From Gelidibacter pelagius (GTDB taxonomy: Bacteria > Bacteroidota > Bacteroidia > Flavobacteriales > Flavobacteriaceae): a stretch of DNA of 64,000 nucleotides. The stretch is taken from NCBI RefSeq assembly GCF_017581925.1, contig NZ_JAGEVG010000011.1, positions 1 to 64,000 of the forward strand, given 5' to 3'. The translations under genes were made by a program, and so were the position numbers. Under the pieces are notes generated by a model. It was given only the letters and a program-made list of their open reading frames with translations. It searched no databases and was not told the origin of the DNA. Shown in pieces: positions 16,519-20,960 of this stretch (positions within the stretch are counted from its first letter, which is position 1; every line of letters begins with the position of its first letter).

Positions 16519-17430
16519 TCAAGACAGCATCTTCAACGTATTGACTTCTTGTTCGGTTAGATGTTTCCAGTGGCCACGAGGAATATCTTTTTTGGTCAGG
16601 CCTGCAATCGCCACACAGTCTACTCTAATAATTTCATAATTTAAATGGTCAAAGATAGAACGGATTATACTACTTCCGGTGTTCTTGATTTTCAGACCAA
16701 TTTGATTTTTCGATTCGCCTGCAACAAAGCTGATTTCTTCTACAGTCACCAATTTACCATCAATCTTCAATCCATCTTGGATTTTCTTAAGGTCTTCGAA
16801 CTTTAGATTTTTATCCAATTCTATTTGAAACAATCGTGGCACGCCATTTTTGGAATTGGTAAACTTATCCATCAAAGCTTCATCATTTGTAAATAAGATC
16901 AATCCCAATGAGTTTCTACCCAAACGACCAATAGGCTTAATACGGGATGTTGTCGCATTGGCGACCAAATCCATTACCGTTCTCCCTTTACCTTCGCTTG
17001 TGGTAGTAGCAAATCCCTTTGGTTTATTCAATAAAACATAGGCTTTTTTCTCAGGACTAATACGCGCTCCATCAAAACGGACGTCATCTTCCAACTTGAC
17101 TTTATAGCCCATTTCGGTGATGATCTTTCCATTGACGGTCACACTTCCAGTAGCGATGTGCATATCAGCATCGCGACGCGAGCAAATACCAGAATTGGCA
17201 ATGTATTTATTAAGTCTTATTTCGGTCGTATTGGACCTTTTGACTGGAGATTTTTTATCTGGAGTTGGTTTGGAACTGTCTTTGGTAACTTTTCTCATTG
17301 GAGCATTTCCTCTAGAATAACTCTTTCCTTTAGAATTATCACGCCCTCTTCCTGAAGTTGGCCCATTGCTTTTATCCTGACCTCTTCCGGATGATTTTCC
17401 TTTTCCACTACTCCCTTGATGTCTACTCAT
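16519..17430 (-). CDS. RsuA/RluB-type pseudouridine synthase homologue lacking the catalytic Asp
   Basis: The 303-residue protein has three parts. Residues 1-65 are a basic, Gly/Ser/Arg/Lys-rich disordered tail. Residues 70-125 are an S4 RNA-binding domain (IRLNKYIANSGICSRRDAD). The rest is the synthase fold (YVLLNKPKGFATT). In active members the catalytic motif reads GRLD followed by GLLLFTND; here residues 168-171 read GRLG (codon GGT at 16918-16920) followed by RNSLGLILFTND. The conserved basic block near the C-terminus (usually NRIVRRIFE) is SSIIRSIFD. Both changes argue against isomerase activity while the fold and RNA-binding domain remain. It may be an RNA-binding ribosome-assembly factor. 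Automatic annotation would call it an rRNA pseudouridine synthase. Confidence 0.8.
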   Translation of the reverse strand: MSRHQGSSGKGKSSGRGQDKSNGPTSGRGRDNSKGKSYSRGNAPMRKVTKDSSKPTPDKKSPVKRSNTTEIRLNKYIANSGICSRRDADMHIATGSVTVNGKIITEMGYKVKLEDDVRFDGARISPEKKAYVLLNKPKGFATTTSEGKGRTVMDLVANATTSRIKPIGRLGRNSLGLILFTNDEALMDKFTNSKNGVPRLFQIELDKNLKFEDLKKIQDGLKIDGKLVTVEEISFVAGESKNQIGLKIKNTGSSIIRSIFDHLNYEIIRVDCVAIAGLTKKDIPRGHWKHLTEQEVNTLKMLS

Positions 17431-17497: not shown

Positions 17498-18400
17498 TCA
17501 AATCCTATTCAGCACCACATCTACATTGATCAATACAATGCTAAAAACTCCTGCCACAATGATAAATTTTAGAATGTTGTGCAATATGAGATAATGTAAT
17601 TTTGTTTTTGACCTCCACAACAACACAATGAACGCAAGCAATAAGAACGTACTAAAATAAAAAAAATAGTTCATCTCGCCAATGTCAAAATATGTGACGA
17701 GCAAGAGCGTAGGAATTAATGTGAAAAGCGCCAAAGATGTCAACATTGCCTTTGATACATGCTCTCCATAAACAACAGGAATAGTATGATAACTTTGAGC
17801 CAAATCGCCTTTGATATTCTCTAAATCCTTGGTCAATTCACGCATTGAAATTATTAAAAACAAGAACATGGCATGGAAAAATATGACTGTTTCAAAATTT
17901 CTATAGTAAATAAAGATGGCGAAAAATGGTGTTATGGTTAAAATTGCAGAGGTCAGATTGCCAATAAATGGCAATTTTTTCAATTTATGAGAATACAGCC
18001 AAATTCCGAAAATATATAATGAAAAGAAAATGACGGCATTAAAAGACACGTAACTGGCCATCACAACCGCTAAGAAATTCAGAACAAAATAAAAGGACAG
18101 TTTTGTGTTTTGACTTACCAATCTGTCCAACATGGATTTATTGGGGCGATTGATCAGATCTTTTTCTGAATCGTAAAAGTTATTGATGATATAGCCTCCT
18201 GCAATGGTAAAAGCAGATGATAAAACCAACATAAACAGATTCAGATCAAGCACCACCTCCCTCAAAGGCCTATCATGTGCCAAAATATAAATGGAAGTCA
18301 GATATTGTGCAATGACAATAATTAGAATGTTATAGCCTCTTATGACAGAAAACATGCTAAAAAACTTGAGCAGAAAGTGTTTTTGTTTTCTGGTTAGCAT
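17498..18400 (-). CDS. UbiA-family prenyltransferase
   Basis: The protein is about 300 residues with the ATG at 18400; a TTG-started form to 18433 adds 11 residues. It has about eight membrane segments. The first aspartate-rich motif is NNFYDSEKDLIN (the NxxxDxxxD prenyl-diphosphate-binding site), and the second, RELTKDLENIKGD, follows the fourth or fifth segment. Members attach a polyprenyl chain to an acceptor such as a quinone precursor, haem or glycerol phosphate. The sequence and its place after mevalonate kinase fit the Bacteroidota geranylgeranylglycerol-phosphate-type or quinone-type members, but I cannot choose between them. Confidence 0.8.
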   Translation of the reverse strand: MLTRKQKHFLLKFFSMFSVIRGYNILIIVIAQYLTSIYILAHDRPLREVVLDLNLFMLVLSSAFTIAGGYIINNFYDSEKDLINRPNKSMLDRLVSQNTKLSFYFVLNFLAVVMASYVSFNAVIFFSLYIFGIWLYSHKLKKLPFIGNLTSAILTITPFFAIFIYYRNFETVIFFHAMFLFLIISMRELTKDLENIKGDLAQSYHTIPVVYGEHVSKAMLTSLALFTLIPTLLLVTYFDIGEMNYFFYFSTFLLLAFIVLLWRSKTKLHYLILHNILKFIIVAGVFSIVLINVDVVLNRI

Positions 18401-18460
18401 AAAAACATGGTTAAAGCAGTTAGGCAAGAGCAATACCAGATGTCTCGGAAGAACATGAGT

Positions 18461-19390
18461 TTAAAAATTATAAACCACTTCTAATTTGTAATCTTTAAGA
18501 GACTGCCTCGCTTTTTCGATATCTTCCGTAAATCCTAAGATATAACCGCCACCACCTGAGCCACACAATTTCAGATAATAATCGTTGGTGTCGAGGCCAT
18601 TTTTCCAAAGCGCATGAAACTGTTGTGGAATCATGGGTTTAAAATGATTCAATGCCACTTTTGAAAGTTTTTTTGTATTGAGAAACAATGATTTAAAATC
18701 ACCCTTTAAAAAGTCGTCCACACATGCATCTGTATGCTTAATAAATTGATTTTTCAACATTCTTCGAAACCCCTCCTGTTTCATATTTTCCATGAAAATA
18801 CTGACCATTGGTGCTGTTTCTCCAATCATGCCACTATCCAATAAAAACACGGCACCTTTTCCGTCACTTTTTTGCGAAGGAATCCCAGTAGCCTCTATAT
18901 TATCTTTTGAATTAATCAAAATAGGAATACTCAAATAACTATTCAACGGATCCAAACCAGATGATTTTCCGTGGAAAAACGATTCCATTGCAGAAAAAAT
19001 GGTTTTAAGAACCAATAGCTTTTCACGTGTCAAATTCTCTAAAACGGTAATTTTATCGTGTGCATACTTATCATAAACAGCAGCTACCAAAGCCCCACTA
19101 CTCCCAACGCCGTAACCTTGTGGAATTGAAGATTCAAAATACATGCCCGCATCGACATCTTTTTCTAAAGTTTCAAAATCAAAAGTCACCAATTCAGGAC
19201 TGATGCCTTTAAGATAATCAACAAATCTTTTTAAATTATTGTTGGATTTTATAGCGTTTTCAGAGTCAAGCCCGTCAGTTTTTAACGCACCATTATAAAA
19301 ATTATATGGAATGGATAAGCCTTTGGAATCTTTAATGATGCCATACTCGCCGAAAAGTAGGATTTTAGAGTAAAATAGAGGTCCTTTCAT
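18461..19390 (-). CDS. mvk: GHMP kinase, probable mevalonate kinase
   Basis: The 309-residue protein starts with the GHMP pattern SKILLFGEYGII and carries the ATP-binding loop PQGYGVGSSGALVAAVY at residues 90-106. It ends with the third GHMP motif KLCGSGGGGYILGF. It sits two genes upstream of a diphosphomevalonate decarboxylase's product in the pathway and shares direction with it, which supports mevalonate kinase over homoserine or galactokinase. The N-terminal part is shorter than in typical mevalonate kinases but matches the divergent Bacteroidota form. It would phosphorylate mevalonate in the cytoplasm. A four-helix-bundle gene lies between it and the decarboxylase gene. Confidence 0.8.
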   Translation of the reverse strand: MKGPLFYSKILLFGEYGIIKDSKGLSIPYNFYNGALKTDGLDSENAIKSNNNLKRFVDYLKGISPELVTFDFETLEKDVDAGMYFESSIPQGYGVGSSGALVAAVYDKYAHDKITVLENLTREKLLVLKTIFSAMESFFHGKSSGLDPLNSYLSIPILINSKDNIEATGIPSQKSDGKGAVFLLDSGMIGETAPMVSIFMENMKQEGFRRMLKNQFIKHTDACVDDFLKGDFKSLFLNTKKLSKVALNHFKPMIPQQFHALWKNGLDTNDYYLKLCGSGGGGYILGFTEDIEKARQSLKDYKLEVVYNF

Positions 19391-19427
19391 TTTTTTTAAT
19401 GAAAAATTAATAATGCAAAGTTAATGA

Positions 19428-19775
19428 TTATTCTTTAGAAGTTTTTACAATACTCACTAATAATCGCAACATCTCCTGTGCTTTAGGCTTATATTCCTGA
19501 AATTGTTTCGCACCCAAGAAATCAGTAGCATGCAATAAATCCAACCAATAGTCAGTTTCATTGGCTTCTTTAAGACTAATTGACATTTTATTAGTGAAAT
19601 CAGCTCGGCTTTGAGCAAATTCAGCTTCCCTGACATTTGCGCCTATTGAAGTTCCTGATTTCAAGAGTTGTCTTGACATGACATATTCTCTTTTGTTACC
19701 AGATAAATCTTTATAAAGATTTACAATATCAACGGCAAATTTGAAGCTTTTGTCTTTAATAATGTTTGCTTTCAT
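19428..19775 (-). CDS. four-helix-bundle protein (S23 / rRNA intervening-sequence family)
   Basis: The 115-residue all-helical protein reads SFKFAVDIVNLYKDL, RQLLKSGTSIGANVREAE, KMSISLKEANETDYWLDLL, which is the signature of the small family found inside 23S rRNA intervening sequences and as orphan genes throughout Bacteroidota. The biochemical role is unknown. Here it separates mevalonate kinase from diphosphomevalonate decarboxylase, with short A+T-rich flanks rich in attaat phrases (19391-19427 and 19776-19841). It is unrelated to isoprenoid metabolism, so it looks like an insertion into this operon. Similar genes are often found as stray single copies, which fits occasional mobility. Confidence 0.8.
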   Translation of the reverse strand: MKANIIKDKSFKFAVDIVNLYKDLSGNKREYVMSRQLLKSGTSIGANVREAEFAQSRADFTNKMSISLKEANETDYWLDLLHATDFLGAKQFQEYKPKAQEMLRLLVSIVKTSKE

Positions 19776-19841
19776 GATAAGAGATTTAATGATTCGTGTT
19801 AACCAATATACACAATTCCCTCTGACATTATTAATTATAAA

Positions 19842-20960
19842 TTATTCATTTTTAATTAATTGTGCTCCAAAACCAATTTGGTCACAAATATAATGTCCAT
19901 TCTGACAATAGGCAACCAACTCTCTCTGAATAAATTGCAGGATTTCTTGGCTTTCCTTTTTAGGATAAAGCACGTGTACATTAGCTCCCGCGTCCAATGT
20001 AAAACTGATGTTTAAACCTGTATTTTGTCTGAATTCCCATATTTTATTGATAATCTCCAAAGTATTGGGTTTCATTAAGATGAAATAAGGCATACTGGTC
20101 ATCATCATGGCGTGCAAGGTCAAGGCTTCACTTTCAACCAAAGCATTAAATGCTGCTAAATCTCCCGACTCCAAAATCCCCTTAAGGTTCTCAAGGTTTT
20201 GATGCGCTTGTTCAAATCTATTTTGTGCATAAGGATGGTCATACATGAGGTTATGCCCAACCGTACTGCTTACTTGCTTTTCACCTTTATCAACCAATAA
20301 AATAGTATCCTGGTATTCCTTAAAGTTCTCATGAACTTTATAAGGGTATTTTATCCCAAACAAATCCGTACTTCCTCCTATGGATTTGGTTTTGCCCCAA
20401 ACTATCAAATCGCCTTCAATGCTTCTGCACGCACTTCCTGATCCCAAACGCGCCAAAAAAGATGCTTTTTGATTAAAATATGCATCATCAAAATCTTCCT
20501 CAACGGCACTTACAATCACATCAGATTCTATCAGTTGCTTTTCAACACTCATTAAACATAAGGCCAAAGCACTCATGCCACTTGCGGAGGAAGCAATCCC
20601 TGAACTGTGCGGAAAAGTGTTTTCTGTTTTTATTATAAACCGATACTGTTTTAAAAACGGCAGATATATTTCTACCCTCTCGAAAAAAGTCTGAATTTTA
20701 GGTTTGAAATCGTCTTTCTTCTCACCATCCAAATACACTTCAAAATCGAAATTTTCAAGATTATCTTTCTTAGAAAACTCGATGGTAGTAATGGTTTTAC
20801 AATGATCCAAGGTAAAACTGATGGAAGGGTTTTCAGGAATCTGATCCTTTTTCTTTCCCCAATATTTCACCAAAGCAATATTGCTGGGCGATTGCCAAGT
20901 GACACTTCCTTTTTCTAAGGTGGCGTTGTATATATTTGGTATAAAATTGCGTTCGGTCAT
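19842..20960 (-). CDS. mvaD: diphosphomevalonate decarboxylase
   Basis: The 372-residue GHMP-fold protein has SNIALVKYWGKK at residues 26-37, the diagnostic substrate motif of the family. The phosphate loop PHSSGIASSASGMSALAL is at residues 117-134, and SFTLDAGANVHVLY near the C-terminus carries the catalytic Asp. It converts mevalonate-5-diphosphate to isopentenyl diphosphate with ATP. It is the first gene of the isoprenoid group and is transcribed leftward toward mevalonate kinase. The protein is somewhat longer than the typical 330 residues because of insertions around residues 60-90 and 140-165. No phosphomevalonate kinase gene is in the window. Confidence 0.9.
   Translation of the reverse strand: MTERNFIPNIYNATLEKGSVTWQSPSNIALVKYWGKKKDQIPENPSISFTLDHCKTITTIEFSKKDNLENFDFEVYLDGEKKDDFKPKIQTFFERVEIYLPFLKQYRFIIKTENTFPHSSGIASSASGMSALALCLMSVEKQLIESDVIVSAVEEDFDDAYFNQKASFLARLGSGSACRSIEGDLIVWGKTKSIGGSTDLFGIKYPYKVHENFKEYQDTILLVDKGEKQVSSTVGHNLMYDHPYAQNRFEQAHQNLENLKGILESGDLAAFNALVESEALTLHAMMMTSMPYFILMKPNTLEIINKIWEFRQNTGLNISFTLDAGANVHVLYPKKESQEILQFIQRELVAYCQNGHYICDQIGFGAQLIKNE

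Follow-up and report, generated by a model that had tools for sequence, protein, structure and literature searches.

In Flavobacteriaceae, RluB, a protein with the pseudouridine synthase fold, has repeatedly come to lack its catalytic Asp, and in one large clade of the family the Asp-less form is fixed and constrained. This is broader than what was first noted, that is, a single gene with Gly at the catalytic position in the window, by which we mean the whole analysed stretch of 64,000 nucleotides from Gelidibacter pelagius. In E. coli, RluB (b1269) is the 23S rRNA pseudouridine 2605 synthase acting on helix 93, and RluF (b4022) is the 23S rRNA pseudouridine 2604 synthase; U2604 neighbours U2605 in the same hairpin. 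The gene of the window and its parts are the following.

16519..17430, minus strand: open reading frame of the RluB orthologue without the catalytic Asp, ATG start, 303 aa plus stop (Pfam, orthologue comparison)
17227..17430, minus strand: basic, low-complexity N-terminal tail, residues 1-68, net charge +14
17083..17220, minus strand: S4 RNA-binding domain, residues 71-116, with Arg85 (Arg17 of RluB) retained (Pfam, alignment)
16765..17043, minus strand: PF00849 match, pseudouridine synthase fold, residues 130-222 (Pfam, Foldseek)
16900..16935, minus strand: motif II PIGRLGRNSLGL, replacing PVGRLDRNTTGL, residues 166-177 (alignments)
16918..16920, minus strand: codon GGT for Gly171, replacing catalytic Asp110 (alignment with E. 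coli RluB)
16828..16830, minus strand: codon TTT for Phe201, replacing active-site Tyr140 (alignment with E. coli RluB)
16654..16683, minus strand: motif III NTGSSIIRSI, residues 250-259, replacing SGRNRIVRRI, with Ser254 for Arg194 (alignments)

The domain order, an S4 domain (PF01479, 3.7e-09) followed by the synthase fold (PseudoU_synth_2, PF00849, 1.9e-12), places the protein in the RsuA/RluB/RluF group and bears out the preliminary description, according to which the S4 domain is kept. Both Pfam matches exceed their cut-offs. When the AlphaFold model of the 239-residue core (mean pLDDT 87.6, pTM 0.75) was submitted to Foldseek, the best matches were the RluF-RNA complex 3dh3 (E 2.6e-23), RsuA and the RluB-RNA complex 4lgt, and the eighth was 9cl9, an entry entitled 'WT 12C IM fraction, B-b3 with RluB bound'. 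Each of the highest-scoring NCBIfam models (RluF, TIGR00093, RsuA and RluB) stays below its curated cut-off: the RluF model NF007784 gives the best NCBIfam score, 133.8 bits (6e-39) against a cut-off of 318, and the RluB equivalog NF007976 gives 71.7 bits against 290. E. coli RluF with RNA (3dh3, 5e-32) is also the nearest solved chain by sequence. However, in contrast to E. coli RluF, the active site is lost here, and the genome of the window has a separate RluF with GRLD. Instead, both the trees and a common UbiA neighbour identify the protein as an orthologue of the Asp-bearing RluB-like proteins of Bacteroidota. Counting long loci only, since counts over short loci mix in loci of other genes, a UbiA gene no more than about 2 kb away accompanies the Asp form in 16 of 19 loci, the GRLG form in 22 of 30 and the other losses in 8 of 9 (46 of 58 long family loci). 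By locus and descent, therefore, the gene can reasonably keep its name, and doubt attaches only to the enzymatic label, so that the earlier suspicion of a protein mislabelled as RluB applies to the activity and not to the name.

The long basic tail mentioned in the preliminary description is present as well, but in the alignment it is N-terminal, whereas the basic tails of E. coli RluB and RluF are C-terminal. The net N-terminal charge is also above zero in 38 of the family's 39 Asp rows; the tail thus characterises the group and is unconnected with the loss of Asp.

The active site differs from that of E. coli RluB at three positions. The reading frame, the codon and the alignment agree that Asp110 of GRLD corresponds to Gly171, within CGT TTG GGT AGA AAC TCA (R-L-G-R-N-S), as had been claimed at the outset; in addition, Tyr140 is replaced by Phe201 and Arg194 by Ser254. 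The latter change falls in the motif III block, where the alignment confirms SSIIRSIF in place of the NRIVRRIF of canonical relatives. Apart from the fold, E. coli RluB and the present protein have in common Arg17 (Arg85 here), the base-flipping Arg108 (Arg169) and Arg197 (Arg257). The available text of PMC3919597 describes Asp110 as a universally conserved catalytic residue of E. coli RluB and gives the activities of the Y140F and R108A mutants as about 3% and 0.6%, respectively. With Gly in place of the nucleophile and with both Tyr140 and Arg194 changed, established chemistry leaves very little chance of turnover by the known mechanism. Judging from residues 171, 201 and 254, it is nearly certain that catalysis has been lost in the clade of the window, in line with the original proposal.

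The Gly form is not a peculiarity of one genome. Within the genus of the window the protein is found in 9 of 9 genomes, always with GRLG, and the copy of the window is 82-92% identical to the other eight. An even draw of 120 family genomes contains the orthologue in 114 (one of them a fragment), RluF alone in five and neither in one. In the family as a whole, orthologues were read in 130 genomes, one being unreadable at the catalytic position; the other 129 have Gly (76), Asp (40), Glu (7), Ser (2) and, once each, Asn, His, Gln and Lys. The GRLG motif accounts for 70 of these 129 (70 of the 76 Gly rows), and a single GRLG row (G018) is placed by one tree apart from the rest. Thus, the conservation of Gly anticipated in the preliminary description holds for a large clade, but not for the family, in which 40 orthologues keep Asp. 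Among 114 genomes from the order, class and phylum beyond the family, a non-random set of best-scoring and hand-picked loci, the latter mainly weak ones chosen to seek losses, Asp is present in 105, Asn in five, Glu in two, and Gly and Leu in one each; of the 55 order genomes outside the family that had a match, 51 were read. Seven of the nine losses beyond the family belong to one small-genome family (f10), and the others to families f7 and f33. In a separate collection, the best 80 of at least 588 matches comprise 21 Gly and 59 Asp proteins. Among these best 80, Gly is found, for example, in Winogradskyella, Lacinutrix, Mangrovimonas, Mesoflavibacter, Hanstruepera, Leeuwenhoekiella and Zunongwangia, as well as in one record labelled Flavobacterium sp. 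(L353), and Asp in Flavobacterium including F. johnsoniae, Tenacibaculum, Polaribacter, Maribacter, Muricauda, Chryseobacterium and Capnocytophaga.

Since Asp is the rule outside the family, it is the ancestral state and the direction of change is loss, not gain. We reconstructed these changes on two trees, both inferred with the catalytic columns excluded. The larger has 176 rows (181 family and order rows, minus six from the genus of the window, three from 600-kb genomes, fragment G119 and G156, plus six rows from beyond the order). It requires at least 17 changes between Asp and non-Asp and contains seven independent Asp/non-Asp pairs on well-supported branches. The smaller, with 64 family and five outgroup rows, omits 12 long-branched or fragmentary rows; it shows nine changes, or four if the Glu rows are left uncounted. 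It samples 15 of the 69 GRLG rows, and these form one clade (SH-aLRT 99.8). A single origin of all losses, with the 28 non-Asp rows of this tree constrained to one clade, was rejected (AU p 5.8e-42). Most likely, then, the GRLG form of the window arose once and the other losses occurred separately; there may also have been a few later reversions to Asp.

Loss of the substrate might be considered as a cause of Asp loss. For the genomes read this can be ruled out as far as a changed U2605 is concerned, because hairpin 2588-2606 of 23S rRNA, with U2604 and U2605 included, is identical to that of E. coli in 30 of 30 (14 GRLG, six other losses and 10 Asp); five of the 30 are from the genus of the window. 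Position 2586 differs from E. coli. A 23S match was present in 32 of the 60 genomes queried, and none was found in the assembly of the window itself.

The neighbouring modification might be relevant. The genome of the window has six PF00849 genes, among them the present one and an RluF with GRLD and the intact motif III NRQIRR; we read the others as one RluE-like protein without an S4 domain and three of the RluA type. A second RluB with GRLD, the presence of which the preliminary description had proposed to look for, was not found among these six, the other S4-type relative being RluF. RluF copies from 47 genomes carry GRLD in 46 cases, the remaining one being masked by X. To assign RluF we used a profile search in 76 genomes, which cleanly separates RluF (at most 1.1e-88) from RluB (about 1e-35 to 1e-47), and match counts in the rest of the 184. 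No RluF was found in 35 of these 184 genomes, of which 32 keep Arg108, Asp110 and Arg194, two do not and one is unreadable. Of the 149 with RluF, 27 keep the three residues and 122 do not, related genomes being counted repeatedly. The combination of a missing Asp with no RluF found is limited to G012 (93% complete) and G073 (80% complete). An independent-pairs test of Asp loss against the presence of RluF was not significant (seven pairs on supported branches, median p 1). In a branch-length test, chosen after the pattern had been seen, 10 of 10 Asp losses fell on RluF-bearing branches (binomial p 0.004), and in the same post hoc test all 5 of 5 changes affecting any of Arg108, Asp110 and Arg194 did so (p 0.010); this test was run on a single quick tree, with seven reconstructed reversals for Asp and two for the three residues. 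That RluF permits the loss of the RluB active site is plausible.

What the protein might do without its reaction can be approached through its likely RNA contacts. According to the available text of PMC3919597, E. coli RluB holds helix 93 via its S4 domain (Arg17) with Arg108 inserted into the stem, and motif III and the bulge loop also contact the RNA. We slightly favour the reading, based on these sequence features, of an RluB-derived pseudoenzyme that is non-catalytic and kept for binding helix 93 of 23S rRNA, or the pre-50S particle, during assembly; a role in binding 23S rRNA or the 50S subunit in the looser sense is likely too, though we would hold it with evenly balanced conviction. The protein would no longer make pseudouridine, yet its S4 domain, Arg169 and basic tail would still anchor it to helix 93. 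Once docked, it may hold or refold the hairpin and so aid folding around the peptidyl transferase centre in 50S assembly. RluF, active with an intact site on U2604 of the same hairpin, would have made it possible to dispense with the RluB reaction.

There are precedents for such a division between binding and catalysis. In the accessible part of a study of an E. coli strain without ten 23S enzymes (PMC11194073), inactive RlmB and RlmKL restore growth, and RluB is named among the proteins on precursor particles. The same part of that study reports no significant rescue of growth or assembly upon re-expression of RluB or RluF, and no assembly benefit but worsened growth with the dead synthase RluC(D144A). 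TruB, according to the text of PMC11301382 available to us, serves as a chaperone of tRNA independently of its reaction. As presented in these partial sources, RlmB, RlmKL and TruB resemble the present protein in having a function apart from the reaction; they differ in being naturally active enzymes that were tested as mutants, whereas here the natural protein itself lacks the residues and its role is putative.

Two of the elements that contact the RNA in E. coli RluB, motif III and the bulge loop, are remodelled here, so the ligand might be other than helix 93. We regard it as rather unlikely, though well worth keeping in mind, that the protein has lost catalysis and binds a different RNA or partner, such as tRNA, mRNA or RluF itself. 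Speaking for such a change of ligand are the RNA-facing walls of the cleft, which were first remodelled and then became nearly fixed. Compared with canonical relatives, the GRLG rows have P193S in 48 of 48 (14 rows being gapped), K199R in 61 of 62, H249K in 59 of 62 and R272C in 62 of 62, together with a motif III of the kind NTGNxIIRxI. The retained S4 domain would also suit another RNA. On the other hand, the GRLG clade retains the equivalents of both the S4 anchor Arg17 and the base-flipping Arg108, and the fold itself is preserved according to AlphaFold and Foldseek, which argues for the original hairpin.

If the protein had neither its old reaction nor a new task, the gene should be a relaxed, decaying one. 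We consider this improbable, even though the losses at the site are numerous and varied and five of the 120 family genomes have RluF without RluB (G042, G048, G055, G062 and G095, three of them less than 90% complete), from which it follows that the protein may be dispensable. The median pairwise dN/dS within genus is low, 0.034 for the core, and equals that of RluF in the same genomes, 0.039. Both medians come from 11 usable pairs out of 36 and rest on the closer ones; pairs without an estimate, taken as saturation, number 23 of 36 for RluB and 22 of 36 for RluF, and dS was out of range in two and three pairs, respectively. Across 62 GRLG genomes, with the genus of the window thinned to two, 83 of the 234 core positions reach 97% identity or more, and Gly171, Phe201 and Cys272 occur in 62 of 62 rows. 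Among the 53 canonical rows, position 171 is Asp in all 53, position 201 Tyr in 52 and position 272 Arg in 52, the Asp/Gly contrast being the one that defines the groups. Internal stops are confined to a single orthologue (G085) among the listed orthologue rows. In other words, the Gly form evolves as slowly as intact RluF and has acquired new fixed residues, so it is not decaying; its old active site is constrained in a new state. Within the limits of sequence comparison, this constraint is the strongest hint that the GRLG clade retains a non-catalytic task.

Slightly less probable still is the persistence of catalysis by means of another nucleophile, either a different acidic residue or water, so that pseudouridine would still be made. 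The Glu found at the position in seven family genomes could conceivably work, and some motifs of the GK type have an Asp two places on. The clade of the window, however, has Gly within GRLGRNS, which contains no acidic residue, and Tyr140 and Arg194 are gone too. Furthermore, Gly, Glu, Ser, Asn, His, Gln, Lys and Leu are all seen at the position, and no single substitute chemistry fits them. As to an error of sequencing or a mutation confined to one genome, which the preliminary description had named as grounds for withdrawing its claim, it is refuted by the occurrence of Gly throughout the genus (9/9), in 76 of the 129 family orthologues that could be read and in 21 of the best 80 of at least 588 loci.

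Returning to the non-catalytic assembly protein that we favour, its extension to the whole group is more tentative. In Flavobacteriaceae and some relatives, RluB might several times have changed from an enzyme into a 50S-assembly protein without catalysis in lineages whose RluF covers the hairpin, and in the largest clade the site, with Gly, Phe and Cys fixed, would have been rebuilt to serve a new binding function. Whether the importance of rRNA modification enzymes lies in the modification they introduce or in their hold on the RNA is a long-standing question, which, as far as the accessible part of PMC11194073 goes, has been approached via engineered dead mutants. Here a dead form arose naturally several times and is under strong selection in one large clade, beside lineages with the active form, so that genera with and without Asp offer a ready comparison. 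If true, the repeated change to an assembly protein would be natural evidence that what selection keeps in an rRNA modification enzyme is its binding, as opposed to the modification it makes. Given that Asp is called universally conserved in the available text of PMC3919597, its absence from a large clade would come as a surprise to specialists. Among the papers listed in searches of the open-access PMC literature, outside which most subscription papers lie, we found no published report of Asp loss in RluB. Naming the Asp-less proteins 'synthase' would be misleading.

Some lineages deserve separate mention. Flavobacterium records (L376 and others, including F. johnsoniae) keep Asp, except L353, but have a GRMD motif and carry Lys where E. 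coli RluB has Arg194; they may represent the same drift at an early point. A loss beyond the order, at the class level (L225, genome G211), combines GRME with Gln at the Arg194 position, and this genome has RluF. In family members with small genomes of 1.3 to 2.2 Mb (L054 and L056-L058 from G059, G088, G102 and G027, L055 from G072, and L053 from G012), Asp, Arg108 and most of motif III are gone, but the S4 residues and a C-terminal KK(D/N/E)LxRGxW motif are retained. The losses in these small genomes and in family f10 look more like erosion. Five genomes of about 0.6 Mb read from family f15 (L248-L252) keep RluB with Asp, and RluF was not found there. A Flavobacterium-like RluB gene also occurs in a record labelled as a Bifidobacterium breve MAG (L394), which is probably mislabelled or a mixed bin.

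In the window, the gene adjoins those for a UbiA prenyltransferase, a GHMP kinase and a diphosphomevalonate decarboxylase (17498-20960; Pfam). Between the latter two lies a 115-aa open reading frame (19428-19775), which we take to resemble the four-helix-bundle proteins of the 23S intervening-sequence kind.
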